DNA of 33,785 nucleotides from positions 1 through 33,785 of the forward strand of contig JAHWGK010000031.1 in the NCBI GenBank assembly GCA_020054495.1, given 5' to 3'. The stretch comes from Thermoplasmata archaeon (GTDB lineage Archaea; Thermoplasmatota; E2; DHVEG-1). Each line of letters begins with the position of its first letter. The first letter of the stretch is position 1. The notes under the pieces are model-generated. The model saw only the letters and a list, made by a program, of their open reading frames with translations. It was not told the DNA's origin and did not search any database. Made by a program: the position numbers and the translations under genes. Shown in pieces: positions 10,235 to 28,187 of this stretch.

Positions 10235-12565
10235 CTATTTTACAACGGTTACCGTGATAGTTGCATAAGCATATCCTGCTGAATCTACGATGATAATGTT
10301 TTCTCTACATGTTACTACGACATTTGCTGAGTCTAAAGAAACTGATTGATCGGGGACATAGTTTAAGTATATAGCTTCACTGTTCCCTATTGTAACAAAG
10401 AAATCGTATTCATCTGACAAATCAAAAATATCTTTTAAATCTTGATAAGGCAGTTCTGATAGTTCGTATATTTTATCCATACTCAACAGAGCAGTATAAT
10501 CATTTTCAGTAACACTAGTTTGTCTCGAAAAGCTAATTTCTTCTTCATTTCCTACCAATATATAGGTTCGAACAGCATTATGTGCAATAACAATATTGTC
10601 TCCAAAGATTACCAAATATGTGTGATATTTTTCTGTTTCAAAATTATAGGTAGGGACCTTTTTATAGATTTTTTTCAAGGAGTCAATCTTGCCTTTGAGT
10701 AATGCTTCTCCAATTTTTAATTTACCTGCAGATATCCATTGTCCGTTTATGTACAATGGATGATCTGGAGTTATTCCTAGGTCATTGTTGAGAACTAAAT
10801 AATAATTACTTCTCATTTTCTCTGGAGGGTCATGAAAGATTTGAACTACTCGGTCCTTAGTAAAAATGTGGGTTTTTTCATCATATGATTTAACAATGTC
10901 TCCGATTTGAATATCTTCAATATTTTTTTGTGAACCATCTGCCATTTCTATTTTAGTACCCGCAAGAAAACATTGCAGCTCTTTCCCTCCATCTTCAATT
11001 TCACCAGGGACAACAACATTTACAAAAAAGGGCTCAGACCAGTCTTCACTTCTAACACCCTGCCTGTCCTCAGCAATTGCCCTTACCTCATACTCTCCAA
11101 GTGAACTCCAAAGGTGAGATGTCAAATAATCTTCGCCTTCTGGTAATCGATAGCTTGTCCATTCATCGACAATTATGTCACCATCCCAGTCCCAACCAAT
11201 TCTCACCGTTTCACCTTCAGGTGGAAGATCATCCACAGTGGATGTAATGAAATCAGCCAGCTCATCTTCTTCTATTTCCTGAGGGCCATCAGGTTTACTT
11301 GGACTTTCTGGTGGATTATTTTCTGGAGGCTCACCCTCCTCAACCAGAACCTCAAGTATCTCTGACCAATCCCCAAAGGCACTATGATTATCATCCTGAG
11401 GTATAGCCGTTACTCTATAAACACCTCCAGGTTGAGTCTCACTTGATTCACTCCAAACATGAGTTGCAGCCATAGGATTAAAGTTAGAATAAATAGTAAA
11501 TTCATCAACAATTTTGTCGCCATCCCAGTCCCAACCAATTCTTACATTATCACCATCTGGATCTCCAGCTACAACAGAATACTCACATATAGTAACACCG
11601 ATTATGATTTCAGAAGTAGGTCCTGTTGGACCAGCAAATATGATTGGCGCCAAATTTCCTTCGACAGTAATTACTTTAGGATCTGACCATTGGCCGTTCC
11701 AAGCATCATGTTCATCTTTTGCTCTAACTCTGATCTCATAAGTGTCTGCACTATTCCAGATATGACTTGCTTCTACATCATATCCAGATCTATTTGGGCC
11801 AAGCCAATCGCTTATCTCACCATCCCCCCAATCCCACATATAATAAACATCATCGCCCTCTGGATCGGTAGTGCTTGTTTCAAAAGAATATTCTTCCCCG
11901 GTTACATAGTCTATAGGATAAACTTGTTCAGTACAACTTGGAATAGTTGGCGTCTCTGGCGGCTCGTTAGGTGGGGGAATAGTTGCTGTGAAGCTCCATT
12001 TATCTGAAGTAGAATTACCAAAAGGTTTTGAATCATTAACTGTAACATACCACTTGTAATCTCCTGGTGATAATCCCACCCAAGTAAAAGAAGCACGACC
12101 ATGGTTGTTAACACCAAAATCTTCTCCAATAAGTTCTCCAGACTCTGCATAAAAAGAAACATTCAGTTCTTGGTCTTCTTCCTCATCTGCATCATGAACA
12201 GCAACACTTAACTCAATACTGTTGAGTGGACCTAACAGTACATTATCGCCATTCCCAGGGATTGGGTTATCCGCATATGGCGGTGAATTAAGAATAGTGA
12301 TATCAGTTATCGACTCAGTCGGAGGAACGGGCACTGATGTTTCAGGCTCTATTACAAGACCAACTTCAGATTCTGAAGTTAATAATATACTCATTATCTC
12401 TGTAGCCTTTACATTTGCATCAGCATAATACTGTGCAGATGCTTGTTCCACTGGAGGAGCCATCGAAGCAGTCACAACAACGAGAGTTGAAATTAATGCC
12501 ATACTCGCTATTGTAAATTCAAGGGGCGAAACAACCCCATAATTATTTTTGAATGATTTTCTCAT
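10235..12565 (-). CDS. Pilin-like protein with PKD repeats and a Hint domain
   Basis: This 776-residue exported protein begins with a basic end and a pilin-type hydrophobic helix (NNYGVVSPLEFTIASMALIS), then a helix ending in TEIMSILLTSES. A cadherin/FN3-like region (about 75-205) and three PKD-like domains (about 210-520; motifs such as RIGWDWDGD) follow. The Hint domain spans Cys532 (CFLAGTKIEMADGS) to His662-Asn663 (NIVIAHN), then Ala. The last 110 residues (LLSMDKIYELSELPYQDLKD, DEYDFFVTIGN) look like the second half of a haloarchaeal-type pilin (DUF7287-like; family number from memory). A PKD-Hint block thus seems inserted into a pilin. The ATG at 12565, preceded by GAGGGGAAGAGGGA, was preferred to an upstream TTG. 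It has its own promoter at 12634-12662. Confidence 0.85.
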   Translation of the reverse strand: MRKSFKNNYGVVSPLEFTIASMALISTLVVVTASMAPPVEQASAQYYADANVKATEIMSILLTSESEVGLVIEPETSVPVPPTESITDITILNSPPYADNPIPGNGDNVLLGPLNSIELSVAVHDADEEEDQELNVSFYAESGELIGEDFGVNNHGRASFTWVGLSPGDYKWYVTVNDSKPFGNSTSDKWSFTATIPPPNEPPETPTIPSCTEQVYPIDYVTGEEYSFETSTTDPEGDDVYYMWDWGDGEISDWLGPNRSGYDVEASHIWNSADTYEIRVRAKDEHDAWNGQWSDPKVITVEGNLAPIIFAGPTGPTSEIIIGVTICEYSVVAGDPDGDNVRIGWDWDGDKIVDEFTIYSNFNPMAATHVWSESSETQPGGVYRVTAIPQDDNHSAFGDWSEILEVLVEEGEPPENNPPESPSKPDGPQEIEEDELADFITSTVDDLPPEGETVRIGWDWDGDIIVDEWTSYRLPEGEDYLTSHLWSSLGEYEVRAIAEDRQGVRSEDWSEPFFVNVVVPGEIEDGGKELQCFLAGTKIEMADGSQKNIEDIQIGDIVKSYDEKTHIFTKDRVVQIFHDPPEKMRSNYYLVLNNDLGITPDHPLYINGQWISAGKLKIGEALLKGKIDSLKKIYKKVPTYNFETEKYHTYLVIFGDNIVIAHNAVRTYILVGNEEEISFSRQTSVTENDYTALLSMDKIYELSELPYQDLKDIFDLSDEYDFFVTIGNSEAIYLNYVPDQSVSLDSANVVVTCRENIIIVDSAGYAYATITVTVVK

Positions 12566-12633
12566 TTCCCTCTTCCCCTCACTCCTCCAATTTTTATATT
12601 TGAATCTATGTACATTATACTTTCTCACTTTTA

Positions 12634-12662
12634 ATATATAAATATATCGTGTCAAAATGACA
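12634..12662 (-). promoter_or_regulatory. Promoter with shared Hint-pilin upstream element
   Basis: On the minus strand TGTCATTTTGACACGAT is followed directly by a TATA region, ATATTTATATATT, and further on by AAAGTATAATGTACATAG. The same order and near-identical sequence precede the gene starting at 25566, and a weaker version precedes the gene starting near 21568. The element sits where BRE and activator sites lie in archaea. Confidence 0.6.
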
Positions 12663-12666
12663 TTTA

Positions 12667-13167
12667 TTAGTAAATATCGTAACTTATCACCTCAGAAACA
12701 AATTCATTACCATTACCAAACTTTAAAAAGCATATTATTCCATCTGGTTCATCATTAGTATATGTTAGTCCTTTATATTCAGCATCAAAGTAATTACCGC
12801 TCAACGATTCAATAAAAAAAACAAATATATCTCTGGTATCATTAAAATAGGTAAAAATCAGAGTGTCTCCAAAACTTAATTTACCACTGAGCCTATCTTT
12901 AAGTGCCGCTCCAAATTCCTTTCTAACATTATCATAATCAGATTTTATAAAAGATGTTTTATCAATAGAAATATCAACATTTGCTAAGCTTACGGTTATA
13001 GATGCAAGCGTAATAATTGCAACACTCAAAAAAATACCAGCCAGTAATAGTAGTTGGGCATCATCCTTTGCATAATTTCTGCATCTTTTATTTGAAGTGT
13101 GTTTATTTTTGTAAATTTTTTTAGAGAGATTTTTTTTGGAACCTAAAGGTAGAATATTTTTTTTCAT
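12667..13167 (-). CDS. Small pilin-like membrane protein, DUF7261-like
   Basis: A 166-residue protein with a very basic N-terminus of about 40 residues and one hydrophobic helix (DDAQLLLLAGIFLSVAIITL) of the type seen in haloarchaeal pilus-cluster proteins with a DxGQ/DDAQ start. The rest is a small extracellular domain. The ATG at 13167 is preceded by AAGGTGAT. It is the last of a four-gene set with gaps or overlaps of at most 4 bases. It is probably a minor pilin or pilus accessory subunit; the family number is from memory. Confidence 0.65.
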   Translation of the reverse strand: MKKNILPLGSKKNLSKKIYKNKHTSNKRCRNYAKDDAQLLLLAGIFLSVAIITLASITVSLANVDISIDKTSFIKSDYDNVRKEFGAALKDRLSGKLSFGDTLIFTYFNDTRDIFVFFIESLSGNYFDAEYKGLTYTNDEPDGIICFLKFGNGNEFVSEVISYDIY

Positions 13168-13171
13168 AAAA

Positions 13172-13639
13172 TCACCTTAAAGTTAAAAACATGGTCAACA
13201 CTACCTTATAAATATTACCATCAATTACAATGATTCTAGAGGATCTTGCTTCTTTTCCAACTTTAACTAGTGCTTCTTTTAGTATCGTAGTATGATCATT
13301 TATTGAGTTTTCTGGATGTTTACTAAACTCTGATATATCAACTAGAGAAATCTCATACATAGTTCCATATGGAAGACTTCTATTAACATAATCTTTAAAC
13401 TCATCCTTATAGTCAATTGTTGAATACCTAGCCAATAAACTTGGATATTGTTCAAGATTATCTGGCACTCCTTCAAGGCTTGTTAGAATTCCATTACCTA
13501 AAATTTCAAGTTCGTTTTCTTCAGTTTTTGTTATATTAGGTGAAAATTCGAAAGTTCTGACAAAATAAAGTGACATAAGTAACATACCAGCTACAACAAT
13601 GACTTCAAGAACATGTATTTGAGCTGAGTTATTCATCAT
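13172..13639 (-). CDS. Small pilin-like membrane protein, DUF7288-like
   Basis: A 155-residue protein starting MMNNSAQIHVLEVIVVAGML with a single N-terminal hydrophobic helix, then an extracellular domain (ELEILGNGILTSLEGVPDN). It resembles haloarchaeal pilus-cluster proteins that begin with a QxHxLE-type motif. The start overlaps the stop of the preceding gene as ATGATGA, with GGAGGTAA just before it. Translation of the two is therefore coupled. A minor pilin role is inferred from context. Confidence 0.65.
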   Translation of the reverse strand: MMNNSAQIHVLEVIVVAGMLLMSLYFVRTFEFSPNITKTEENELEILGNGILTSLEGVPDNLEQYPSLLARYSTIDYKDEFKDYVNRSLPYGTMYEISLVDISEFSKHPENSINDHTTILKEALVKVGKEARSSRIIVIDGNIYKVVLTMFLTLR

Positions 13640-15510
13640 TTACCTCCTAAAATATTAATAATTCTTTCCCCACGTTGAATAGTCAAATCACCCACAGCCC
13701 AATAGTAATCACTAGCAGCATCGGCATCATCAAAGACAAGTTCAATTTGATAATTCCCATCAATAAAGTTGGGGAATATATCATAAAAAAACATTTTTTT
13801 ATAAGAGTTATCACAACTAGGGGCATCGTGCGAATTACCATTTATTGCAATGGTCATATTTTCAACCATTTTCTGTGGATCGCCTACAGTAAAAACCAAG
13901 CTGTGAACCTCGTTTGTTAAATTCGTAATTGTGAATGTAGCAGCGGCATTTGTTGAGTTGCAAACAAAATCATAGCTATTACTTCCGACATCATGCTCCA
14001 TTGATTTTATATTGCTAGGAATGTTCCATTCATAATCTTGAGAATCAGTTCCACATACATATGTAATAGGGATTGATTCTTCTGGACTAGCAACGCCCTC
14101 TGAAACATTGGCTTCAAATTTGCGTACAAATATCCAATCATAGTACGCAGTAGTATCACTCTCGGTTGTACAAAGACCAAAATGACTATCAACAGCATTA
14201 CTAGTTGAATAGCTTAATGCACCATCAACTGTATAGTTTTCATAAAAATAACGGCAAACAACAATGTCACTTTTATTTATAATATAGACAAGTCTATTCC
14301 ATCCTTGACTAACAGGCAATTCTGAAGAATTTTTAGGTGTACTTGGATAGTCTTCTATTATCGAAAGGTTTTTATTTCCCGTTGTAAAGTTTCCTGATGC
14401 AAAAAGATATGCATGACTATAAGGTACTCCACCATCTTCATCGTTTCTTGCAAACATGCTTGCTTCTCTTTTATCCCCAACTGTTTTTGCTTTAGCTTCG
14501 ATAACACATGGAGATGAGCCGATTTTTATTGTGGAGTTTATAGCAGATCCGTTTTTTATAACTATTTCACCATCATCAATAAAAATATCATCAGGGTCAC
14601 CAGGAATATATGTTTCCCATTCAGCTAGAGATGCTGAAAAGTCGTCGAAGAAATCAAATGTAGCTTCACCATTACCCATAGGTGACGCAGAACGTTTGCT
14701 ATGATACATATAAATTATTTCCGCAGGATATGAAAGAGATGTAATATTCACCCATATTCTCGATGTATGTGTATCTCTAGGATACCATCGTTCTATCCAG
14801 TAATTTAACATAAAACCTGTTTTGTTAATAAATCTTAAATCAGATCCGTTACTATTAGCCGATGAATAATCAAAATTAGTATCATCTAATTGAATTAGAA
14901 CCGAATAATTTTGTAAGGTTTTTCCAACTGGATTTGTTATTATAATAGGAGTTCTATTCGTCCAGTCCTTAAGGCTACCCAGCCATTTATTATTATTTGA
15001 TGAATTTGTTACTCTTGTATACCCTGTGCTCCCTTTTGAAGTATTTGAACCAAAATCAAATTTATGCACATAGTCATAACCATCACAAGAAATATTTATC
15101 GAACCATAGGATGAAGATATTTTACTAGATATATATAGAGACTGTTTCTCTGTGGCGTTATAAATTGTACTTTTTTCATTGATTTTCCCATCATATGATT
15201 TAACATATACTCCACTCTTGTCAATTTGAATATAGTACGAAAAACGATCTACTAGCTTAGCTGGAATCTCGAGTGCTGCCAAATGATCTGCATTTGGGTA
15301 ATCTTCTTTAAAATCACATACATTTGATATTGCACTTGCAACCTGATTTGCAATATTTTCAGCATATATCTCAGCTGCATCTCCTGCTTTCTCATCGATG
15401 AGAGTGTTAGTTGTTACTATAGTGACAACAATTATAACCGTTGTTAAAGAAAGTGTTAACATATAACCTATTAAATGAGAGACCCCTGAATTACTTTTTA
15501 AGAAACTCAT
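13636..15510 (-). CDS. Pilin-like protein carrying DUF2341 and LamG-like domains
   Basis: A 624-residue exported protein. The N-terminus (SNSGVSHLIGYMLTLSLTTV) is a pilin-type helix followed by a pilin-like region to about residue 150 (DUF7266-like). Residues about 160-290 match DUF2341 (LKDWTNRTPIIITNPVG, NYSVLIQLDDTNFDYSSAN, GSDLRF, LNYWIERWYP). Residues about 290-470 look like a LamG/concanavalin-type jelly roll. The last 150 residues form a separate beta-rich domain (MTIAINGNSHDAPSCDN). The cargo suggests binding to carbohydrate or another surface. The ATG at 15510 overlaps the upstream stop as ATGA. Confidence 0.75.
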   Translation of the reverse strand: MSFLKSNSGVSHLIGYMLTLSLTTVIIVVTIVTTNTLIDEKAGDAAEIYAENIANQVASAISNVCDFKEDYPNADHLAALEIPAKLVDRFSYYIQIDKSGVYVKSYDGKINEKSTIYNATEKQSLYISSKISSSYGSINISCDGYDYVHKFDFGSNTSKGSTGYTRVTNSSNNNKWLGSLKDWTNRTPIIITNPVGKTLQNYSVLIQLDDTNFDYSSANSNGSDLRFINKTGFMLNYWIERWYPRDTHTSRIWVNITSLSYPAEIIYMYHSKRSASPMGNGEATFDFFDDFSASLAEWETYIPGDPDDIFIDDGEIVIKNGSAINSTIKIGSSPCVIEAKAKTVGDKREASMFARNDEDGGVPYSHAYLFASGNFTTGNKNLSIIEDYPSTPKNSSELPVSQGWNRLVYIINKSDIVVCRYFYENYTVDGALSYSTSNAVDSHFGLCTTESDTTAYYDWIFVRKFEANVSEGVASPEESIPITYVCGTDSQDYEWNIPSNIKSMEHDVGSNSYDFVCNSTNAAATFTITNLTNEVHSLVFTVGDPQKMVENMTIAINGNSHDAPSCDNSYKKMFFYDIFPNFIDGNYQIELVFDDADAASDYYWAVGDLTIQRGERIINILGGK

Positions 15511-17360
15511 CTCAACCCCTCAATATTTACCTCGATGAACGAACTATCTAGAACAAAACGCTTACCATTTTCTGTATAATATATTGTATTTGGTCTATCT
15601 ACTATTCTTTCAAAGTCATATGATGTAGTGAAATAATTTATCCATAGCTCTGTGGCTTCTTCGAATGGATCATAAATCTGCATTTTGAAATTATATATTT
15701 TAGAATATTGAGATTCTTTTTCTGTAACTCTTGGCTCTCTGCTATAGCTATTTTTCATATTGAGTCCGATTTCGTATACTCCAGAACCACCAACACCTTT
15801 TACATAGGATTCACCTATCTGCATTATTCTAAATCCAATAGCTTCATCCTCCTCGAAAAAAGATGGATGGCTTTTTATACCATTATTTATAGGGCCAAAT
15901 GTCAATATGCCACCGTTTTGAAAAATTGTTATTTGAGAACCAATATCATTTCGAGATTCATAGGTTATAGAACCAAGGTCAAATACCCAAATTCTCCCAA
16001 AAGGTATATCTGTCCAAGAACCACCCCCAAACAAATCTATCCTTAATGTACCATTCAGTGGCTTTGTAGCCTCTATTGTCCAAATAGGATTAGCGCCATT
16101 TTTAATTGGAGATTCACTATAATATCTATCTTCTGGCAAATAATCGCCTATTCCAACAGATATTTCAGTTATATTATCCCCTTCATATATATTTCCATTG
16201 GTATCTTTTACTTGTAAGGTTATTGTATAGGTACCTGGTCTTGCATAAGTATGTGAAACATCATAATCTGTATTGTTGTCCACTAAAGGTGATTCTTTAA
16301 ACTCTCCGTCTCCCCAAAAAATTTTATAACTAATTTGATCATCATCGTTGTCTGTTGCAAGCGCATTATAATTTTCACTAACACCTGATCTAATTGGCGG
16401 AGTAGGTAAATTTAGTAATGGAGCATTTGGTGGAACATTATCCGTAAAATTTAATCTATATCCAAAATCGTAATCAGAGATTGAAGTCCATTTATCTCCA
16501 TTATTAACAGTAACATTTGCATCATAATAACTAGAATTATAAGGGGAATCTTTACTAAGACACCATTTGTAATAATTATAACTTCCACCACCAAAGCTAC
16601 CTCCAGAAGTATTTATACCAATATGATAAGTTTTACTGCCCTCTAATTGTATATCTGGATCAATATCCCATTCTATCCACTCAAAAGAAGAGGATATTTC
16701 ATCTTTAGATATAACGCTAGAAGCATAGGAGTCATTAACATCAGGTAAGTTGTTCCCAGTGGAATTGTATATAGAAACATTTAAATCGCTGGTGACCACA
16801 CCTCGTTCTGCAACATATATCTTTATTTTGTCTAGTTTCCAGTTGTCTACTGGTGGAGTAAATGATTGTGCACACCAATGATCCTGATATATCTTTCTAT
16901 AGGGTGATGTTTCAAAAGCATATTGTTGTGTTGTTTTTCCAGGGTCAAGCCAATAAATTTGTACTCTGTTTAGAGTTAGATCTCCTTCTATTGTAAAGGT
17001 TTCATTCTCATCATCCAAACCTGATACATTGAAATCAAAAGAATCGCCATCGTCAAATGCATATATTAGGATAAGTTTTTTACCTTTAGAGTCAATATTT
17101 AGAGACGCCTGCTCATTAGAACTTACAATATTGCTAAATCCTTTGGATCCATATCCATCAACGATTAAACCACTCATAGTGTCGTACATAACATCAAATC
17201 CAGCAAACACAGCCTGAGTTTCACCTCTTATCTCTTTTTCCTCAATATAAGGGATACCCCAGGCAAGAACCGCAGCTACAACTCCCAATACAATAGTGAG
17301 AGTCAATAATGTTGAAACAACTTCACCAACTGCGTTATTACTAATTTTCATTCCGTCCAT
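15507..17360 (-). CDS. Large pilin-like protein with a PKD domain, no Hint
   Basis: This 617-residue protein has a type IV pilin/archaellin-type N-terminus (NNAVGEVVSTLLTLTIVLGV) and a pilin-like domain ending in VQIYWLDPG near residue 140. A beta-rich region (about 140-315) and a PKD domain (about 316-400; ISYKIFWGDGEF) follow. The C-terminal 210 residues (GTLRIDLFGGGSWTDIPFGR, IWVFDLGSI) match the C-terminal domains of the two giant Hint proteins, so all three share one scaffold. Here no Hint follows the YWL motif, where the other two have it. It is the first gene of a four-gene overlapping operon. The ATG at 17360 follows AAAGGAT. Confidence 0.78.
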   Translation of the reverse strand: MDGMKISNNAVGEVVSTLLTLTIVLGVVAAVLAWGIPYIEEKEIRGETQAVFAGFDVMYDTMSGLIVDGYGSKGFSNIVSSNEQASLNIDSKGKKLILIYAFDDGDSFDFNVSGLDDENETFTIEGDLTLNRVQIYWLDPGKTTQQYAFETSPYRKIYQDHWCAQSFTPPVDNWKLDKIKIYVAERGVVTSDLNVSIYNSTGNNLPDVNDSYASSVISKDEISSSFEWIEWDIDPDIQLEGSKTYHIGINTSGGSFGGGSYNYYKWCLSKDSPYNSSYYDANVTVNNGDKWTSISDYDFGYRLNFTDNVPPNAPLLNLPTPPIRSGVSENYNALATDNDDDQISYKIFWGDGEFKESPLVDNNTDYDVSHTYARPGTYTITLQVKDTNGNIYEGDNITEISVGIGDYLPEDRYYSESPIKNGANPIWTIEATKPLNGTLRIDLFGGGSWTDIPFGRIWVFDLGSITYESRNDIGSQITIFQNGGILTFGPINNGIKSHPSFFEEDEAIGFRIMQIGESYVKGVGGSGVYEIGLNMKNSYSREPRVTEKESQYSKIYNFKMQIYDPFEEATELWINYFTTSYDFERIVDRPNTIYYTENGKRFVLDSSFIEVNIEGLR

Positions 17361-17707
17361 TTATCCTTTATTCAACATAATCCATTTTTTCGATAATTTA
17401 TAACTTGAAAAAACTGATTTCAATATGTTAAGAGAAGTAAAATTTTGATTAAATTCTCCTAGCATTCTTCCCACTCCTAAACCTTATATAGAGAGCAACC
17501 CAGTTTATCTAATGATATATTAATTAAAAAGCTTTTTGCTCTTGTAATTAGCTCTAACAAACTAAAATGGTGTTTTTTTTACTAGTTTGAATTCAAATAA
17601 AAAAAGTTTTTAGTTATTAAGAGCTAAATTTATTAAGAGATAAAATAAAAGAGCATCATTTTTATTTAATTGGCAGTAATAAAAAAGATATAGGAAGATG
17701 AAGTAGT
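17361..17707. other. Intergenic region: promoter, 3' region of the giant pilin, U-tracts
   Basis: No gene is seen. The left part holds the promoter of the pilin operon (TATA, 17391-17406). The right part is the 3' region of the upstream gene, with T-runs on the minus strand (about 17562-17609 and 17683-17690) that may end its transcript. TTATATAGAGAGCAAC (17485-17500) resembles TTATAGAGGGCAACTG (21705-21720), so part of this stretch seems copied along with the giant pilin gene. Confidence 0.5.
17391..17406 (-). promoter_or_regulatory. TATA box for the four-gene pilin operon
   Basis: The minus strand reads AAGTTATAAATTATCG, about 38 bases before the ATG at 17360. The TGACA-type upstream element of the Hint-pilin genes is absent, so this operon may be controlled differently. 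Confidence 0.4.
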
Positions 17708-20700
17708 TTATACTAAATCAGTTTTAATAAGAGCTGACGTAAAAATCAACTGTTTTCCACGATAATTATCATAGACTAAAAAATCAGAAAACTGCCCGGT
17801 TTGAGAATCAAACTTAAAATTCTTAGTTAAATATTCATGCCATGTAATACTATACTCCCCTGAAAATTTGACTTTAAAATTATACACATTATATCCCTGT
17901 TGTTCTCTAGTGAAAGTATCCTGATTTTCAAAGGAAAGTCCATATGTACCAGCACCACTTCCAGCAATAATATTATCTGCTCTAATCATAGTAATAGTAA
18001 ATCCAAGAATATCTCCGTTCTCATAGATATTTGAAAAGCTATCTACGTATGCGCCACCTGGTAAAACTGACATCACACCACCACTCTGAAGACAGGTCTT
18101 AAACTCTCCAGATGCTGAAGGGATTCTATGAACAATAGAACCAAGGTCAAACACATAAATAACACCAAATGGAGCCTCACCTCTAGCGGGATCATCTGCA
18201 GATGGATAGCTATCATTAAACAAATGGATACAAACTGCACCAACTAAATTATTACCAGCATCGATAGGGTCTCCAGGATCAGAAATTCTTATGGATGTTG
18301 AATTGTCTGGTGGAACAACATACTGATAATAAACCTTTATTGCTATTGGAGCCGCCCAGTCGCTAGCTGAACCATTTGTGGTAGGATCACCATCTTCATC
18401 TGCATTATCATCATTTATTGCTTGAACAGTAATTTCATAAACACCAGATACATCCCAATTATGAGAAGGAAGCAATTGTCCAGATTCATTAACTGTTTGA
18501 TTTGCTTTGTATGGACCCCACCAAGTCCTACTTTCAATACCATCTCCCCAATCAAAATAATAGTAAATATCATCTCCCTCTCTATCGGTACTACCAACAT
18601 TGAACTCGTAAGAAATATCATTGTATAACTTTGAAGGATTGAAAATAACTTCAATATTAGAGGGAGTAGTGGGAGGACCACCTGGAAAAACATACTTTGT
18701 TAAATAACCATAACGACCAGCTGTTTCCTCAACACGAAGCTTAACCTCATAGGATTCATCACTACCATGATCATAACTAACATTAACACCAGAAGCATCC
18801 CAGCTTCCATCATTTTCAAAATCCCATGAATAACTTGTTATTGGACCCTCGACACCATACGAACAACTACCATTAAAATACATAAGTGTACCAGAAAATC
18901 CACCATCAGCATCCCAGTAATCAAAGCAAGCAACTGGCCCATCAATATTTTGTGTAAAATAATCATATTGACCTATTGCATCTTCCACACGAAGCCTAAC
19001 CTCATATGCTTCAGTGCTTCCATGGTCATAGCTAATATTAATACCATCGGTATCAAAAGTTCCATCATTTTCAATATCCCATAAATACTCCACTATTCCA
19101 ACATCATCAGATGAACAAGTTGCATCAAAATAATATAGATTACCTCCCCCACCATCAGCATCCCAGTATTCGAAACAAGCTGTTGGAGGGGTATCGCCAG
19201 GAGGGGTAATACCAAAGTCACTGTCATATTGTGTACTCCATCGCCCCAAACTCTTACTAGGAAAAAACACCTGTTCATAAACATAGGTCCATGCTCTAAT
19301 ATAATAGGTTGTATCAGGGTTCAATCCACCCTTTGTGTAAGAAGATCCAGTACCATTGTAAAAAACCATAGCGGTAAGATCTTCTGGATGTGAAGGATAA
19401 CCACTGGTCTTAGCTAAAATTTTTGTATAAACATCAGCACCATCTCCACATATTGCCTTATCCCAAGAGAGATGTAACGATGTTGAACTTTGAGGGGTTG
19501 CATCAAGAGCTTGAGGACCAGGTGGTATTGTAATGAAAAAATTAGTCCAAAAAATTTCATTAGGCCATAATTCTGTAGTACCAGCATCATTTGTGGCATC
19601 AGCCTTTACAAAATAGAAATCTCCTGAAACAAGATCCGCTATATCTGTATTAACTTGACCCGTATAGCGATTTTCAACATCAACCGAATCATGATCGCCA
19701 TAACACGTATCACCATTTTTATAGTAAAAAGTAACGGTATCTCCATCGTTATGAGTAGCTAGTGTTGCATAATCCAAACCATCATCATCAAGATAAGCAT
19801 TCAATGTTGCTGTGGTTTCTCCAACATTTGCTGATTCATTTAAGGTACCCTCAGGTGGAGTAACATAATGGACTATTAACTCCGGAATTTTATCGTCGAG
19901 TCTTAATGATTCAAATGAGATAACATATTTGGGCGGCAAACCTGGTTCGCTTTCCCAGGCACTTATTAACCAACCATAATTATCTCTTAGACCAGAATGT
20001 AGCTCTCTAGTACTTTGGGTCATACCAATGCCACCCTGTAAAGGAGCATCATCACCCCAAATAACCCACTCGCCAATCGAACTCGGCATAGTTGCTTCTG
20101 CAATTGTATCAAGCTGGGGATATTCAGGCCCTTGTCGTATATGCTGCCGGTATATACCACTTAAAGGCCACTGTTGGGAACCAGATGTATCCCAATATTT
20201 CCAGCTAGTATCACCATCCTCCCAGTCACAATCATTAACTTCCTGTGAAAAAACCGGTCTGCCTACAGGATCATTATATACCCATGAACAATAATAAAGT
20301 TCCAACCTTGCTTTTTCAATAAATGCATTACTGGGAATATTATCTAAAGGAAATCTAACCAGTGTACGCTTTTTATTAGTACCTATAGCAAGCTTATTAC
20401 ATAATTTGAGATAATTTTCAGAACATCCTGATGTACTAGATACGTCAGCTTTATCAATATAACAATCTTGATCTGGATATAAAGTTAGTCCATCTCCAAT
20501 CTGTTCTGGCTCACCTCCAACTCCGGCTCCAAGTGGACTAAGCCAGGTTGGGGAACAAGACATCCTATTTACAACAACAGAGCTAGAAACAACAAACTTT
20601 TCAACATCTGAACGAACTAAGAAACCATCAGCAAAATAAGCATTACCAGATTCTATCAACAAATCAAAACTAAGCTCCTTCGAAAACCTCTTTTCTACAG

Positions 20701-21568
20701 AAAACAAAGAAATCTTACGACCAGCAACATCAAATAAAACATCACCAACACTAAGCTTTCCAGCCTCAACCCACTCGTTATTAACAAATAGTATATGATT
20801 AGGAGTAACCCTTAACTCATCATTAATAACAACATAATAATCAGTCATGCGATCTTTACTATAAGACAACAGTTTTTTCACACGAGAATCAACAAAACTA
20901 CCAGAAACATCATCATACGACCTAACAACATCCCCCGCGTCAATATCCTCAATGTTCTTCAAGGATCCATCTGCCATAGTTATTTTAGTACCCGCAAGAA
21001 AACACGTACCCTCAAGCCAATAAATAGTTACATTATCAACATTAGGTCCATCAATAGAAAAAAGAGAGTCATCATCTTCCAATCCACTAACATTAAAATT
21101 CCAATCTTCATCTTCGTTATTAGAATATAATGCTATTAATCGCTCACCCGTCGAATCAATCTCAATTGATCCATCATTAATAACAATATCACTAGTAGAA
21201 CTAGAACCATTCCCACCTGCAATTAAACTATTAAGAACTTCTACAATAGAATTATATTGACTAATAGTAGCTCTAGTCTGATATTTACTTTCTTCACCTT
21301 TAATGTAATCCGGACCCCACAAAAGAACTGCACCAGTTGCTGAGAAAAAAATCATTAATACTAACATAAGGGACATGGCAGAGCTTACAGCATCATTTTT
21401 TAAAAGTCTGTTTAATTTATGTCTAATGTTATGTACTTTTTTCTTCAGTATACCCCTCCATATATTACTATGTAGAGTGCAATCCGATAGTCTTAATATA
21501 ATTGGGATATAAAAGCTTTTTATAATAGAGTTCTTACTAAATATTGTACAATTTACATTACCAACCAT
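17708..21568 (-). CDS. Giant Hint-domain pilin-like protein, paralog A
   Basis: About 1286 residues. A pilin-type segment (LLKNDAVSSAMSLMLVLMIF) leads into a pilin-like domain ending in NVTIYWLEGT. Next comes a Hint domain starting at Cys189 (CFLAGTKITMADGSLKNIED) and running to about residue 335, ending YFADGFLVRSD rather than His-Asn. A DNRLRE-like domain (about 345-570), two FN3-like domains, two close PKD copies with the CFDYWDADGG start and a third PKD domain follow. The last 200 residues (PFGVIYVFDLGSIVHRIPSA) complete the pilin scaffold. The start is uncertain: ATG at 21568 follows GGAGAG, but homology with paralog B suggests a CTG at 21448 behind GGAGGGG. Confidence 0.85.
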   Translation of the reverse strand: MVGNVNCTIFSKNSIIKSFYIPIILRLSDCTLHSNIWRGILKKKVHNIRHKLNRLLKNDAVSSAMSLMLVLMIFFSATGAVLLWGPDYIKGEESKYQTRATISQYNSIVEVLNSLIAGGNGSSSTSDIVINDGSIEIDSTGERLIALYSNNEDEDWNFNVSGLEDDDSLFSIDGPNVDNVTIYWLEGTCFLAGTKITMADGSLKNIEDIDAGDVVRSYDDVSGSFVDSRVKKLLSYSKDRMTDYYVVINDELRVTPNHILFVNNEWVEAGKLSVGDVLFDVAGRKISLFSVEKRFSKELSFDLLIESGNAYFADGFLVRSDVEKFVVSSSVVVNRMSCSPTWLSPLGAGVGGEPEQIGDGLTLYPDQDCYIDKADVSSTSGCSENYLKLCNKLAIGTNKKRTLVRFPLDNIPSNAFIEKARLELYYCSWVYNDPVGRPVFSQEVNDCDWEDGDTSWKYWDTSGSQQWPLSGIYRQHIRQGPEYPQLDTIAEATMPSSIGEWVIWGDDAPLQGGIGMTQSTRELHSGLRDNYGWLISAWESEPGLPPKYVISFESLRLDDKIPELIVHYVTPPEGTLNESANVGETTATLNAYLDDDGLDYATLATHNDGDTVTFYYKNGDTCYGDHDSVDVENRYTGQVNTDIADLVSGDFYFVKADATNDAGTTELWPNEIFWTNFFITIPPGPQALDATPQSSTSLHLSWDKAICGDGADVYTKILAKTSGYPSHPEDLTAMVFYNGTGSSYTKGGLNPDTTYYIRAWTYVYEQVFFPSKSLGRWSTQYDSDFGITPPGDTPPTACFEYWDADGGGGNLYYFDATCSSDDVGIVEYLWDIENDGTFDTDGINISYDHGSTEAYEVRLRVEDAIGQYDYFTQNIDGPVACFDYWDADGGFSGTLMYFNGSCSYGVEGPITSYSWDFENDGSWDASGVNVSYDHGSDESYEVKLRVEETAGRYGYLTKYVFPGGPPTTPSNIEVIFNPSKLYNDISYEFNVGSTDREGDDIYYYFDWGDGIESRTWWGPYKANQTVNESGQLLPSHNWDVSGVYEITVQAINDDNADEDGDPTTNGSASDWAAPIAIKVYYQYVVPPDNSTSIRISDPGDPIDAGNNLVGAVCIHLFNDSYPSADDPARGEAPFGVIYVFDLGSIVHRIPSASGEFKTCLQSGGVMSVLPGGAYVDSFSNIYENGDILGFTITMIRADNIIAGSGAGTYGLSFENQDTFTREQQGYNVYNFKVKFSGEYSITWHEYLTKNFKFDSQTGQFSDFLVYDNYRGKQLIFTSALIKTDLV
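20580..21013 (-). repeat. Hint-coding segment, copy 1 of a near-identical pair
   Basis: This stretch and 24690-25116 differ at only about one base in twenty by eye. The pilin-type parts before and after it in both genes are also very similar, while the DNRLRE/FN3/PKD parts are not alignable at the DNA level. The end of the third Hint gene's homologous segment (10940-10972) is also close. Confidence 0.8.
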
Positions 21569-21640
21569 CAAATTTTATCTCTCCAAATACACCTTTAGCA
21601 TGACATACTATGCCATTACAAGATATATTCTGTTTGAACT

Positions 21641-21671
21641 TATATTTAAATATTTTGTGTAAAAAAGGCAA
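21641..21671 (-). promoter_or_regulatory. Promoter of paralog A with shared upstream element
   Basis: On the minus strand TGCCTTTTTTACACAAAAT is followed by the TATA region ATTTAAATATAAG. The arrangement matches the elements at 25629-25660 and 12634-12662, though less exactly. The TATA box is about 75 bases before the ATG at 21568. Confidence 0.5.
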
Positions 21672-21837
21672 AAAACCCAAATTTTTATTTTTTTAGATTA
21701 TCTCTTATAGAGGGCAACTGAAAAAATATTATTTATCGAGTAAAGCAGCTAATTCGTAAAAAGATAAAAGCCTACATCATTTTTGTTTTGTAATAAATAA
21801 AAAAAGAATAGAGAGAAACCCTGAGAGAATAAGTAAT

Positions 21838-24800
21838 TTATTGTAAATCTGCTTTAATTAGCGCTGTTGAAAAAATCAACTGTTTTCCGCCATAATCATC
21901 ATAAACTAGAAAATCAGAAAACTGTCCAGATTGAGAATCAAACTTAAAATTCCTTGTTAAATATTCATGCCACGTAATACTATACTCACCTAAAATCTTG
22001 ACTTTTAAATTATATACATTGGATTCTTGTTGTTCCCTTGTAAATGTATCCTGATTTTCAAAGGTAAGTCCATATGTACCAGCACCACTTCCAGCAATAA
22101 TATTATCTGCTCTAATCATAGTAACGGTAAATCCAAGAATATCTCCGTTCTCATAAATATTTGAATAACTATCTATGTGTGCGCCACCTGGTAAAACTGA
22201 CATCACACCACCACTCTGAAGTAACGTCTTATGCTCCCCAGATGCTGAAGGGATTCTATGAACAATAGAACCAAGATCAAACAAATAAATAACACCAAAT
22301 GGAATCTTGCCCTTATCAACAGAATTTGCTAACGGTGGGTAACTATCATTAAACAGATGGATACAAACCGCACCAACTAAATCCTGATATGCTGTAAAGG
22401 TATTGCTCTCTGGTGAATCTGGAGATACTTTTTCAGGTTCTTCCCTTATATCCGGTGGAACAACATATTTATAAAGAACTCTTAGTGCTTGTGGATCTGA
22501 CCACTCGGTTTCGAAGCTAGTTGCGTCTTTTTTTGCTTTTACGCTAACTTCATAAACTCCTTTTTCACTCCACGCATGATCTGCTTCAACTGTATCTCCT
22601 GTGTTATATGGACCATTCCAATCAGTTACTCCATTTTCATCTCCAAAGTCAAACTTATAAGAGACACCATCTTCTGTTGCAGTTAATCCAAAGATATATG
22701 TTGTTTCATTATAATAAATTGAAAAAGGAAGATCAAGCGTATTTGGTTTACCCAGTACACCTGTCACATTTACCCGGCATTTATCTGACCAAGCACCTTC
22801 ACCACCTCCAGATGGAGCACGAGCTTGAGCACTAACGTTATATATACCAGATGATGGCCATGAATGACTCTCAAAAAAAGTACCAGGATCACTAAGAACG
22901 CTCCAATCTGTGATATCGCTCGTACCGTCAACATCCCAATTAATCCTGTATTGAATTTGGTCATTTTCTGGATCAGTTACTAATAGTTGAAATTCTCCAC
23001 TTTCGCCAATACTTAAATTACCTTCAAACTTTGGTGTAAGCACTACAGATGGTGGAATACTAACTGAAGGGTTGACAGTCACATTTAAAGCATTTGACCA
23101 ACTACTAAATGGTGGAGTATCAGAATCTTTTGCTTGGACTCTTACTTCGTATACACCTGGTGAGAACCATGAGTGAGACACACTAACAGGTGTCCCTGAA
23201 GGAACCCAAGATGACCAGCTACTAGACTCATCAACAACTCCTGAGGCATTCCAGTTAAACCGATATGAAATTTTATCACCCTCAGGGTCAGTTGCAACTG
23301 TTTCATACATATGTGGAACGCCAACATCTACTGGTGTATCACCAGCAGGAGTACTCGGTGTATCTGGAGGACTATTCGATGATGTACATATTATACACTG
23401 ATCTGGAACATTGTTTCGCTGCCAAAGCCCATCTTCAGTGACATTAGTATAAGCACTAAAATAATAACAAGTATCTTCGTCTAAATCATAAAATGTATGG
23501 TACTCCTGCATTCCTTTCCAAGCTTTAACAAGCGGATTTGTTAAGTCTTCATCATAAGTAGGATATGAACCTTCTTTACACAATACTTTTGTGTAAACAT
23601 CCTGACCAGTACCTTCAACTGCACCTTCGTCCCAAACAACCTTTATTTTATTTGGTCCTGATCCTGTAGAAGCTTCTTCGAGATATGTAGGAGAAGGTGG
23701 TATAGTAATGAATTCTACTATACTTCCATAACCATTACTATACGCACTGTTTTCTGCATAAGCTTTATATTCTACAAGATCTCCAGAGTTCAAATTGCTA
23801 ATGGAAACGCTGATAAGAGCTGAGTCACTATAATCATAACGGCTTGTTGATTTTGATGTTGTATACGAAAGTGAACCATATCCCCATTTAAAATAACAAT
23901 CGGTTGCCTCACCACCATCATAAGTTAGTTTACCCTCAAGTGTGGCTGAGTCGGTTCCGATACCTGTTGGATTCCATGTTTCAATAGTTGGTGGAGCAAT
24001 AAAACTAACAATCATGAATGGTGATTCATATTCTCTAGAGCGATATTTAACAGTGTGTTGTAATGTTCCAATATCTTCATCTACATCTTTTATATACCAA
24101 CCATGAAAATCTTCATAATGTCCTAGTTGAATACCTACCGGATTACTACCCCAACTATAACCTACGAACTCTTGTATACTACTTGTAACATCCCATTCCT
24201 TCCAACCAAAGCCTGTTTTACTGATTGATACACTATATAATACACCTGGATCTGATTCCCTGAAATTAAATTCTTGATTATCCCAATCTGCACCGGCTGG
24301 AGGTAATTCGTTCCATGAATTTGCACATTCATAAACATCGTGTTGACGTGGCCATCCTATTCCAACACCATCCCATGAGTAATAAAGGAGGTTTAAATCA
24401 GCATCAATAATATAGGAAAATTCTGGAATGTCTGATTCATCAAAATCAGTTTTAACAAGTGCACGATTTAGATAACTTATAACAGGGTGCATTGGATCTA
24501 CGTATAATTTTGGCTCCTCGCCATAATTAATATCTGGAGAATATTTAGATATATATGTATCTTTAGTTGCAGTGGAATTCAATTCTATTGGATAATCATG
24601 CCATGAACTAAGTGGTGGTACTGATTCTTCTCCAAGTGGATCTAGCTGTACTGGGGCACAAGACATCATACTTACGCCAACAGAACTAGAAACAACGATC
24701 TTTTCAACATCTGAACGTACTAAGAAGCCATCAGCAAAATAAGTATTACCTGATTCCAACAGCAAATCAAAACTAAGTTCCTTTAAAAACCTCTTTTCTA

Positions 24801-25566
24801 TAGAAAACAAAGAGATCTTACGACCAGCAACATCAAATAAAACATCACCAACACTAAGCTTTCCAGCTTCAACCCACTTGTTATTAACAAATAGTATATG
24901 ATTTGGAGTAACCCTTAACTCATCATTAATAACAACATAATAATCAGTCATACGATCTTTACTATAAGACAACAGTTTTTTCACGCGAGAATCAACAAAA
25001 CTACCAGAAACATCATCATACGACCTAACAACATCCCCTGCTTCAATATCCTCAATGTTCTTCAAGGACCCATCTGTCATAGTTATTTTAGTTCCCGCAA
25101 GAAAACACGTATCCTCAAGCCAATAAATAGTTACATTATTAACATTTTGACCATTAGTCATAATAATTTCGAGTAAATTTTTATTATTATCATCGAGTGA
25201 TGCATTAAAATCCCAGTTTTGATTAAAAGAATATGCAATTATTATCTTTTCACCCTTTGAGTCAATCTCAATTGATCCATCATTAATAACAATATCACTA
25301 GTAGAACTAGAACCATTCCCACCTGCAATTAAACTATTAAGAACTTCTACAATAGAATTATATTGACTAACAGTGGCTCTAGTCTGATATTTACTTTCTT
25401 CACTTTCAATGTACTGTGGCCCCCATAAAAGAACAGCACCAGTTGCTGAGAAAAAAATCATTAACACTAACATAAGGGATATAGTAGAACTCATTGCGTC
25501 ATTTTTTAATAGTCTTGATAAACTGTGTTTAATGGTATTAAGTTTATTTTTCATTGTTATATTCAT
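21838..25566 (-). CDS. Giant Hint-domain pilin-like protein, paralog B
   Basis: 1242 residues. The pilin-type N-terminus (LLKNDAMSSTISLMLVLMIF) and pilin-like domain lead to NVTIYWLEDT and a Hint domain from Cys154 (CFLAGTKITMTDGSLKNIED) to about residue 300, ending YFADGFLVRSD without His-Asn. Next are a DNRLRE-like domain (about 320-520; DTYISKYSPDINYG), two FN3-like domains (about 520-730), three or four PKD domains (about 735-1030; PEGDKISYRFNWNAS) and the conserved C-terminal pilin domain (PFGVIYLFDLGSIVHRIPSA). The ATG at 25566 is preceded by AAGGAAAGGAGAG. The ends are nearly identical to paralog A while the middle differs. The protein is presumably secreted and assembled by the pilus machinery encoded upstream. 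Confidence 0.87.
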   Translation of the reverse strand: MNITMKNKLNTIKHSLSRLLKNDAMSSTISLMLVLMIFFSATGAVLLWGPQYIESEESKYQTRATVSQYNSIVEVLNSLIAGGNGSSSTSDIVINDGSIEIDSKGEKIIIAYSFNQNWDFNASLDDNNKNLLEIIMTNGQNVNNVTIYWLEDTCFLAGTKITMTDGSLKNIEDIEAGDVVRSYDDVSGSFVDSRVKKLLSYSKDRMTDYYVVINDELRVTPNHILFVNNKWVEAGKLSVGDVLFDVAGRKISLFSIEKRFLKELSFDLLLESGNTYFADGFLVRSDVEKIVVSSSVGVSMMSCAPVQLDPLGEESVPPLSSWHDYPIELNSTATKDTYISKYSPDINYGEEPKLYVDPMHPVISYLNRALVKTDFDESDIPEFSYIIDADLNLLYYSWDGVGIGWPRQHDVYECANSWNELPPAGADWDNQEFNFRESDPGVLYSVSISKTGFGWKEWDVTSSIQEFVGYSWGSNPVGIQLGHYEDFHGWYIKDVDEDIGTLQHTVKYRSREYESPFMIVSFIAPPTIETWNPTGIGTDSATLEGKLTYDGGEATDCYFKWGYGSLSYTTSKSTSRYDYSDSALISVSISNLNSGDLVEYKAYAENSAYSNGYGSIVEFITIPPSPTYLEEASTGSGPNKIKVVWDEGAVEGTGQDVYTKVLCKEGSYPTYDEDLTNPLVKAWKGMQEYHTFYDLDEDTCYYFSAYTNVTEDGLWQRNNVPDQCIICTSSNSPPDTPSTPAGDTPVDVGVPHMYETVATDPEGDKISYRFNWNASGVVDESSSWSSWVPSGTPVSVSHSWFSPGVYEVRVQAKDSDTPPFSSWSNALNVTVNPSVSIPPSVVLTPKFEGNLSIGESGEFQLLVTDPENDQIQYRINWDVDGTSDITDWSVLSDPGTFFESHSWPSSGIYNVSAQARAPSGGGEGAWSDKCRVNVTGVLGKPNTLDLPFSIYYNETTYIFGLTATEDGVSYKFDFGDENGVTDWNGPYNTGDTVEADHAWSEKGVYEVSVKAKKDATSFETEWSDPQALRVLYKYVVPPDIREEPEKVSPDSPESNTFTAYQDLVGAVCIHLFNDSYPPLANSVDKGKIPFGVIYLFDLGSIVHRIPSASGEHKTLLQSGGVMSVLPGGAHIDSYSNIYENGDILGFTVTMIRADNIIAGSGAGTYGLTFENQDTFTREQQESNVYNLKVKILGEYSITWHEYLTRNFKFDSQSGQFSDFLVYDDYGGKQLIFSTALIKADLQ
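24690..25116 (-). repeat. Hint-coding segment, copy 2 of a near-identical pair
   Basis: Matches 20580-21013 at about 95% by eye. See that entry for the extent of similarity. Confidence 0.8.
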
Positions 25567-25841: not shown

Positions 25842-27110
25842 TTATTTATCTAATTCATCGTTTTTAACAATCTTTTTCCATATAATAGAAATTATCAATG
25901 ATGATATTATACTCACTAAAATAATTCCTATCGCTGCAAATACATTCTTTAATAAATCCGGATTTATTAACAAAACAATTCCAAAAGAAAACATCATTAT
26001 ACCAGAAACCAATTTTAGAATCCTACCTTGATACTCGCTAATTTTCCTTCGACCAAGAGTTACAACAAATATCAAAACAATAACAATTAATGGTATCACA
26101 TAGACAATATTATATATTAGTATATATAGATAAGATTGCATTAGAGGGACATTGTGAATAATTAAAGAATTTGTAAAAACAACTGGTAATCCCAATGTAC
26201 AAGCTAATTCATAGGTATTTGCAAATATTGCTAATGCAATTGTTCCAAGAATCATTGTTGGCAAATGTGTAATTTTAACCACACCACGCATTCGTTTGAA
26301 TAATTTTTTCTTTTTACTTTTAGATATACTCAAAGAAAAACCTTGTTTAAAGAAGAAAAAATCTTTAATATTAATACTACCAAGAATCAAAGCAACTAGA
26401 CCCGCTACCAATGTAACAATAAAAGGTTGTTCTAGTTTAGTGAAAGTTGTTAACAACAAAACCATAAGTAAAAAATAAATAAAACCAGAAAAAAAGATAA
26501 AAATTCCTCCAATTATAAGCATTCGCTTTCTAGATTTTGCATATAAAAGAAGGTTTAATAAAAATAATAAAATGAAAAATGAGCAAGGATTCACACTATC
26601 AAGAGCACCCAAAACAATTGTTAGAACCGGTAAAGACAGCTCCGAGAGATTAAAACAAAATAAACCAAAAGGTGTATCTATACAAATACTATCCCGATCA
26701 GGTTCAGGGGGCACCTCTGAATAATTCCCGGCCAGATGATAATCTATTGCATCTTGAAGATTTTTTTCAGTTGTATTATCATAAACAAACCAAAATAAGG
26801 CTTTATTATTTGTTTGATTTTTAACAACTGTGCCAGGAGTGGCTGTAAAACCATATGAATAAAATAGTTCTCTATTTGCATTATTTTTTATTGAGAATCG
26901 ATAAACAGTTAGATTATTTTCATATTGTTCTTCAATTAGATCAATTATTGGGGCGGTCTCTTCACAATTACCACATCCTTCATTATAGAAAAATTCAAGG
27001 GCAATATCAGTATCTTCTGCAATAACAGACTGCGTAAAGTTAAAAAACAAAAAAGATAGCGAAATAGCAATAAAAAAGCAACGCAAATATCTATTCATCA
27101 AAGCAAACAT
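25842..27110 (-). CDS. Thioredoxin-CcdA/DsbD-like thiol-disulfide transporter
   Basis: The 422-residue protein starts with a signal-type segment, then an extracellular thioredoxin-like domain (about 32-130) with the active site CGNC at residues 46-49 and the cis-Pro region FTATPGTVV. A membrane domain with about six or seven helices follows, of CcdA/DsbD type, with SVNPCSFFILLF in its first helix and ELACTLGLPVVFTN later; these two Cys form the expected redox pair. It should pass electrons from the cytoplasm to extracellular thiols. It lies between the secretion genes and the Cys-bearing Hint proteins. The ATG at 27098 (MNRYLRC) is an alternative start. Confidence 0.85.
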   Translation of the reverse strand: MFALMNRYLRCFFIAISLSFLFFNFTQSVIAEDTDIALEFFYNEGCGNCEETAPIIDLIEEQYENNLTVYRFSIKNNANRELFYSYGFTATPGTVVKNQTNNKALFWFVYDNTTEKNLQDAIDYHLAGNYSEVPPEPDRDSICIDTPFGLFCFNLSELSLPVLTIVLGALDSVNPCSFFILLFLLNLLLYAKSRKRMLIIGGIFIFFSGFIYFLLMVLLLTTFTKLEQPFIVTLVAGLVALILGSINIKDFFFFKQGFSLSISKSKKKKLFKRMRGVVKITHLPTMILGTIALAIFANTYELACTLGLPVVFTNSLIIHNVPLMQSYLYILIYNIVYVIPLIVIVLIFVVTLGRRKISEYQGRILKLVSGIMMFSFGIVLLINPDLLKNVFAAIGIILVSIISSLIISIIWKKIVKNDELDK

Positions 27111-27233: not shown

Positions 27234-28187
27234 TTATATTCCAGTGATAAGTAGCTTGAATATTAGCCATGCTACCAGCATCATAATAAAAGTATGTTTC
27301 ACACCTGAGACAACATTTCCTTCTTCAAAAACCCCTGTCACTAATCCCATACCCGCACTCTGGATAAGAGCCGCGTAAAAAAACACCTCAGTTATAGCAT
27401 ATTGTGTAATTCCTCCAGCACCACCCACTCCAGCAGTACTATAAGCCTGCGCAGCTTCCGCAGCACCCTCCCCGAGCATACTAGGAAGAAGACTTTTACA
27501 TAATACAATAATAATTAGTAAAAAAACACCCATACCAACGTATATTACAGCCACATAAGACATCATACCCGCTCTTCTTTCAGAGTCAATTAATTTTATT
27601 TCCCTTGCATCCTTTGAAGCAGCGTCTAATACATCGGCTACATTCCCACCACTTCTACTAGCTTCAATAATCAAAGAAATAGTTCTCCTAATAAGCTTGG
27701 TATTAACTCTTTTTGCAAAAGCACTTAAAGCATTGTCAACGCTACTACCCCAAGAAATTTGTCTAGCTATTTTTTGTATCTCTGGCGTCAAAACACCATA
27801 ATTTCCTCTAGAAGAATACATAATGGCCTTGGTAAAAGTCATTCCAGCGCGTCTTGATTCAGCTAAATCTCTAACAAAATCAGGAAATCGATTATCAATC
27901 TTACGCACTCTGTGTAAACGCAAGAATTCATATATACCAAAAACACCTGTAAGAATAAAAACTGCTATAAGAATAAAATCAACAGAAGTGCCAATAATAA
28001 TATATCCATCACCTGAAGGAATGTACATTGGTTTAATAATTCCTATAGAAGCCAATAAGCCAAAGATAATAAATATAAACGCGGGTATTGCTGCAGCCAA
28101 ATACACAATAAATCTTGTTAATTGTCCGGTAAAGGTTAGCCGTTTTATCAGCCCCTGTTTATTAACAACATCTGATTCTGCATCCAT
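27234..28187 (-). CDS. Type II/IV secretion system F family protein (TadC/PilC-like)
   Basis: A 317-residue inner-membrane platform protein of the T2SF family, with two N-terminal helices, a cytoplasmic helical domain (FPDFVRDLAESRRAGMTFTK, ISWGSSVDNALSAFAKR, EASRSGGNVADVLD) and C-terminal helices. The GLFMTLA-type details differ, but the SGG-N-DVL signature is clear. It forms the membrane base on which the PilB ATPase acts. It begins six bases after the preceding T2SF gene, with AGGTGTGATG before the ATG. The pair corresponds to the two halves of a pilus platform. Confidence 0.88.
   Translation of the reverse strand: MDAESDVVNKQGLIKRLTFTGQLTRFIVYLAAAIPAFIFIIFGLLASIGIIKPMYIPSGDGYIIIGTSVDFILIAVFILTGVFGIYEFLRLHRVRKIDNRFPDFVRDLAESRRAGMTFTKAIMYSSRGNYGVLTPEIQKIARQISWGSSVDNALSAFAKRVNTKLIRRTISLIIEASRSGGNVADVLDAASKDAREIKLIDSERRAGMMSYVAVIYVGMGVFLLIIIVLCKSLLPSMLGEGAAEAAQAYSTAGVGGAGGITQYAITEVFFYAALIQSAGMGLVTGVFEEGNVVSGVKHTFIMMLVAWLIFKLLITGI

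Follow-up and report, generated by a model that had tools for sequence, protein, structure and literature searches.

The window analysed here (33,785 nucleotides, part of contig C173 in a 2.72 Mb assembly of a Thermoplasmata archaeon) carries a type IV pilus operon in which three large proteins, A, B and C, have the features of modular pilins: a cargo is apparently inserted inside the pilin head, with a predicted self-cutting Hint domain at its edge. Judging from their sequences, A, B and C would be subunits of an archaeal type IV pilus, although their incorporation into the filament is putative. Within the literature searched, the Hint pilin is a new combination of parts that are separately known, namely modular pilins and Hint domains. 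If the mechanism proposed below is true, the subunits of an extracellular filament would be remodelling their own backbone once exported, and this would provide a natural job for cleaving Hint domains, the functions of which are mostly unknown.

The genes considered here all lie on the minus strand (Table 1), and genes for S19e, eIF6, Rpr2 and a PDCD5-type protein (Pfam), from which an archaeal origin is deduced, flank them. The ATPases and the T2SSF pair are located upstream of the pilin genes in the direction of transcription, so that an assembly ATPase and a platform protein are both found near the pilins, as is characteristic of type IV pili. Because its two members correspond to different halves of ArlJ/FlaJ, the T2SSF pair is read as a TadB/TadC-like split platform rather than as two PilC proteins. 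The helix-hairpin-helix part of the second ATPase resembles the N-terminal domain of RadA (HHH_5). A 372-bp tandem repeat (positions 32895-33785; 2.4 copies, 99%) runs to the contig end and corresponds to the N-terminal part of the first ATPase; this repeat is possibly an assembly artefact.

Table 1 Genes of the pilus operon and their Hint domains, with positions in the window
Feature	Positions	Strand	Basis
PilB/ArlI-type secretion ATPase 1	31087..33738	-	T2SSE 3.6e-36 (Pfam)
PilB/ArlI-type secretion ATPase 2, C-terminal helix-hairpin-helix	29047..31086	-	T2SSE 8.8e-36, HHH_5 2.2e-10
Platform protein, N-terminal half of ArlJ/FlaJ	28194..29075	-	T2SSF 4.3e-18; ArlJ/FlaJ model positions 5-244
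Platform protein, C-terminal half of ArlJ/FlaJ	27234..28187	-	T2SSF 4.2e-22; ArlJ/FlaJ model positions 246-448
Membrane protein with thioredoxin domain	25842..27110	-	Thioredoxin 4.3e-5; CcdA-like membrane part by eye
Hint pilin A: pilin N-half, Hint, DNRLRE/CBM96, PKDs, pilin C-half	21838..25566	-	Pfam and pilin profile
Hint domain of A, Cys1 = residue 154, end RSD (without His-Asn)	24709..25107	-	
Hint pilin B: design of A, other cargo	17708..21571	-	Pfam and pilin profile
Hint domain of B, Cys1 = residue 190, end RSD	20606..21004	-	
Pilin D: A/B-like pilin halves, PKD-containing insert, without Hint	15507..17360	-	Pfam and pilin profile
Pilin-like E: DUF7266 N-terminus, DUF2341 domain	13636..15510	-	Pfam
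Small pilin-like F	13172..13639	-	N-terminal hydrophobic helix; conserved operon place
Small pilin-like G	12667..13167	-	N-terminal hydrophobic helix; conserved operon place
Hint pilin C: pilin N-half, PKD-type repeats, Hint, pilin C-half	10235..12655	-	Pfam, relatives
Hint domain of C, Cys1 = residue 562, end IAHN then Ala	10577..10972	-	

A class III signal and an N-terminal helix can be recognised by eye in all the pilins and pilin-like proteins from A to G. This agrees with the pilin-type N-terminus that the original prediction had assigned to A, B and C, in which class-III-like leaders (KNDA followed by MSSTISLMLVLM in A, KNDA followed by VSSAMSLM in B and NNYG followed by VVSPLEF in C) precede a visible hydrophobic helix; in the AlphaFold2 model of A (residues 1-330) this helix is predicted weakly (pLDDT about 50-65). 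The start of B is uncertain, and that of C is probably the ATG at 12565 and not the TTG at 12655; the orthologues of C begin at the same methionine. A and B share their N-terminal ~130 and C-terminal ~200 residues with D and with the pilins of relatives. Plain pilins of 332-356 residues exist in three of these relatives (G069, G252 and G243), where the N- and C-parts are joined directly. A profile built from these three proteins recognises the N- and C-terminal ends of A, B and D (1e-21 to 1e-27 per half); in A and B, an insert of about 870-900 residues lies between the matched halves. DUF7289, which we take to be a pilin-like family together with DUF7266/DUF7287, covers the first half in one plain pilin and the second half in another; its match to the second half of A is weak (Pfam). 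Since the plain-pilin profile and DUF7289 match both of the flanking halves, cargo and Hint interrupt one single pilin domain. The three components (Hint, pilin end and cargo) are thus all present, but their arrangement is that of an insert within a pilin rather than a simple fusion. Among the expected surface modules, PKD is found in all three proteins and CBM96 or DNRLRE in A and B, whereas fn3 only gives a weak match in B (Pfam). The pilin head is recognised in A, B and D and less clearly in C, which may follow the same plan in a different type of pilin, the evidence being weaker; the C-half of C is common to Hint-free relatives. A model of D, reconstructed by AlphaFold2 with A and B as alignment, had a mean pLDDT of 35.5, which is too low for interpretation. 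In the pilins with both halves found, 12 of the 15 Hint domains lie at most 25 residues from an edge of the insert, compared with 2.7 expected at random in a test that treats related sequences as independent. The edge concerned is mostly the N-terminal one in A-type pilins and the C-terminal one in the C of the window.

The Hint domains themselves could be confirmed both by sequence and by predicted structure. Matches are above the Pfam cut-off in A (PT-HINT 1.8e-8, Hint 2.8e-8), B (Hint 2.3e-8, PT-HINT 3.9e-7) and C (PT-HINT 3.3e-10, Hint 2.1e-7), and the whole genome contains exactly three PT-HINT matches, which are these three proteins. In the AlphaFold2 model of A, the alignment for which took in 16 other Hint-bearing sequences, the Hint region (about 160-290) is confidently folded, with block pLDDT of 72-98 and most blocks >90. 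Its first Foldseek matches in the PDB are the Tetrahymena BUBL BIL2 (6y75) and a BIL of Clostridium thermocellum (2lwy), with TM by target of 0.81-0.84, followed by inteins and Hedgehog (1at0, 6tyy). The profile of the 21 operon Hints retrieves the same families by sequence (6y75 2.4e-22, 2lwy 4.2e-18). Given this fold, as well as Cys1 and the TxxH motif in 21/21 operon Hints, these domains belong to the Hint superfamily. The match to the Pfam 'Pretoxin HINT' model could also mean that cleavage releases an adhesin or a toxin-like portion to the medium, which is the role of pretoxin Hints in polymorphic toxins; in the proteins studied here, the Hint is followed by adhesin modules and the second pilin half, and such a release seems very unlikely. 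A polymorphic toxin was rejected, as Pfam finds no toxin domain C-terminal to the Hint in A, B or C.

Cys1, Thr67 and His70 are invariant in all the 21 operon Hints, whereas among the 43 other Hints gathered from loci in the phylum, 34 have Cys1 and 36 have His (alignment gaps account for seven of the missing Cys1); these counts treat related sequences as independent. The C-terminal His-Asn has been kept in 13 of the operon Hints, including C, and lost in eight: Arg-Ser or Lys-Ser replaces it in A, B and their orthologues from G138 and G181, and four more operon Hints also lack it. Only one of the 13 His-Asn-bearing Hints has Cys, Ser or Thr at +1. The combination of His-Asn and a +1 nucleophile that defines inteins is absent from all three proteins, as A and B have no His-Asn and the HN of C precedes Ala. 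A and B rather have the pattern of B-type BILs, with N-side motifs and no C-terminal motif, which is not the case of C, where HN is kept. Selection appears to have maintained the N-side chemistry and not the C-side chemistry.

In every A-type and C-type comparison the Hint is the part with the lowest omega: its dN/dS is 0.11-0.30, compared with 0.14-0.72 in the other parts of these proteins (0.13-0.30 against 0.34-0.72 for the A-type, 0.11-0.14 against 0.14-0.67 for the C-type). One might suppose that the Hint has no activity and acts as a structural spacer, or that it is a passenger module that spreads among exported proteins, given that these archaea have further exported proteins with scattered and tandemly arranged Hints, some of which are without Cys1 or His. 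Nevertheless, the presence of Cys1, Thr and His in 21/21 operon Hints and the strong purifying selection on the Hint relative to the rest of the protein argue against this supposition, and we regard it as unlikely, slightly more so than splicing (see below). Between A and B (17708-25566), identity is 95% in the Hint, 77% in the pilin halves and 30% in the cargo; homogenisation is seen at the pilin ends and in the Hint (dS 0.19-0.45), whereas the cargo has diverged (dS about 1.2). This pattern suggests gene conversion accompanied by a cassette-like exchange of cargo.

The invariance of the catalytic residues, combined with the Hint fold, leads us to infer self-cleavage at Cys1 in the manner of B-type BILs and Hedgehog, which would leave a nicked pilin with its cargo hanging from one half; we consider the chances of this mechanism being correct to be about even. 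B-type BILs, which have no C-terminal motif, undergo N-side cleavage (reviewed in PMC7765530). After export, the Hint would perform an N-to-S acyl shift at Cys1 and the chain would be cut there. In A and B, the cut would take place on the N-side alone and separate the pilin N-half from the Hint, cargo and C-half; in C, it would separate the N-half and cargo from the Hint and C-half. The halves would probably remain together, because they form one domain in plain pilins, and a single cut in an insert held at two ends would produce an arm that hangs from only one of the halves and might serve in adhesion. A cut at either edge of the insert leaves the cargo on one pilin half. The His-Asn of 13/21 Hints would also allow C-side cleavage. 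The proteolytic maturation originally proposed is therefore still to be expected from the N-side residues kept in 21/21 operon Hints. Such an opening is not obligatory for every insert, since D, the pilin of G135 (L140) and a third protein (L068:6329-7438) carry inserts without Hint.

Another reading is splicing, in which the Hint would be excised and its flanks joined to yield a Hint-free modular pilin similar to D. The His-Asn of 13/21 operon Hints, C among them, and the existence of Hint-free homologues (D and L140) would be congruent with this scenario, and splicing has been reported for BILs without +1 nucleophile, according to the title of a reference (Dassa 2004) in PMC7765530. Yet A and B, like their orthologues from two other genomes, have Arg-Ser or Lys-Ser instead of His-Asn, and the +1 nucleophile is limited to 1/13. 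As the C-terminal His-Asn has been lost, A and B would not be expected to splice: splicing is unlikely for them and possible for C, and as a general explanation we find it improbable.

Alternatively, the Cys1 thioester could be resolved by an external nucleophile, be it a lysine of an adjacent subunit, a glycan or the head group of a lipid, which would become covalently attached to the pilin N-half, as sterol does to Hedgehog. A and B are in a Hedgehog-like state, with the N-side chemistry kept and without His-Asn, and the nearest solved relatives are the ciliate BUBL BIL domains; in the BUBL locus, BILs flank ubiquitin-like domains. Nevertheless, no region resembling a sterol-recognition region and no acceptor was found after the Hint, and hydrolysis requires no partner. 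This alternative is improbable in our view, though conceivable for A and B, and slightly less probable is its consequence that transfer of the N-half to a subunit, the S-layer, a glycan or a lipid by a chemistry like that of Hedgehog produces archaeal pili with covalent links or anchors, an outcome also envisaged in the original prediction. A role of the thioredoxin membrane protein as the keeper of a reduced Hint cysteine was also considered, but weakened by its absence from three Hint loci and its presence in two pilin-less ones.

Several known systems resemble parts of this design. The PilB and PilC pilins of S. sanguinis likewise bear large adhesive modules on a small pilin and have been proposed to display them at the tip (PMC8179133, PMC9934059). 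In these modular pilins a short linker joins the module, whereas the cargo studied here is located inside the pilin head with the Hint at its edge. The corresponding survey deals with bacterial IPR012902 pilins; it lists one peptidase module (IPR030392), and no Hint appears among the architectures that the text consulted mentions (PMC8179133, PMC9934059). In GspK of type II secretion an extra domain is also inserted in the pilin sheet (PMC8179133), but it is an alpha domain and not a Hint. B-type BILs are similar to A and B in their Hint fold, Cys1 and TxxH, missing C-terminal motif and, as predicted for A and B, mainly cleaving activity; the differences are that the host is here an archaeal pilin and that the 13/21 operon Hints with His-Asn look A-type. 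The Hog/Hint of Hedgehog has the same fold (1at0, 6tyy) and, as is predicted for A and B, an N-side thioester chemistry without the C-side Asn. Hog is nonetheless C-terminal, whereas the Hint is here in the middle of the protein, and adhesin modules (Pfam) follow it in place of a sterol-recognition region. Concerning the pilin part, DUF7289 resembles the pilin halves of A, B and D relatives, DUF7266 the N-terminus of E and DUF7287, weakly, a C-type relative; the profiles themselves, unlike A, B and C, include neither a Hint nor inserted cargo. The main text of a survey of archaeal type IV pili contains no Hint, intein, PKD or autoproteolysis (PMC4858521), and literature searches combining Hint, pilin and archaea returned nothing on a Hint pilin design. 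The claim that no archaeal pilus of this design has been described thus agrees with the literature searched, although modular pilins in themselves are well documented.

Hint-bearing pilins are found in the same operon in nine genomes, belonging to three families. In G181 the genes follow the conserved order PilB, PilB, platform, platform, (thioredoxin protein), A, D, E, F, G, C, rnp4, S19e, and portions of it are found in G138, G069, G252, G243, G214, G100 and G267, where several contigs are cut. The operon marker E is present in 10 of the 52 genomes of the order and nine of these ten have a Hint in the operon; the A-type pilin of the tenth (G135), located on a short contig, lacks a Hint. In two genomes, G246 (L141) and G184 (L142), the pilus machinery is directly followed by rnp4 with no pilin genes, which reflects either a loss or a state that preceded the arrival of the pilin genes. 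Beyond the order, a relative from the same class (L071) has a C-type pilin C-half with a Hint; neither recognised pilus genes in its vicinity nor a recognisable pilin N-terminus were detected. One profile scan of genome contigs produced a single distant match, in a bacterium.

Hints also occur in other kinds of proteins. An exported subtilase/rhodanese/thioredoxin protein (L060, G100:C62:150-8930) contains nine head-to-tail Hints (residues 1488-2822) separated by 2-6 residues, mostly ending in HN then Thr or Ser, and smaller arrays are found in L063, L045, L061, L064, L074 and L070. We know of no function for tandem Hint arrays of this type. Degenerate Hint-like domains without Cys1 or His are present in exported proteins of the same family (L037-L044). 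A Candidatus Collierbacteria MAG encodes a Hint (L004:643-5862, residues 995-1122) within a protein of the alpha-2-macroglobulin type, as assigned by eye, and Hints that end in HN-Lys are found on IMG/VR contigs (L075-L139), in putative phage proteins such as those of L075, L077 and L081.
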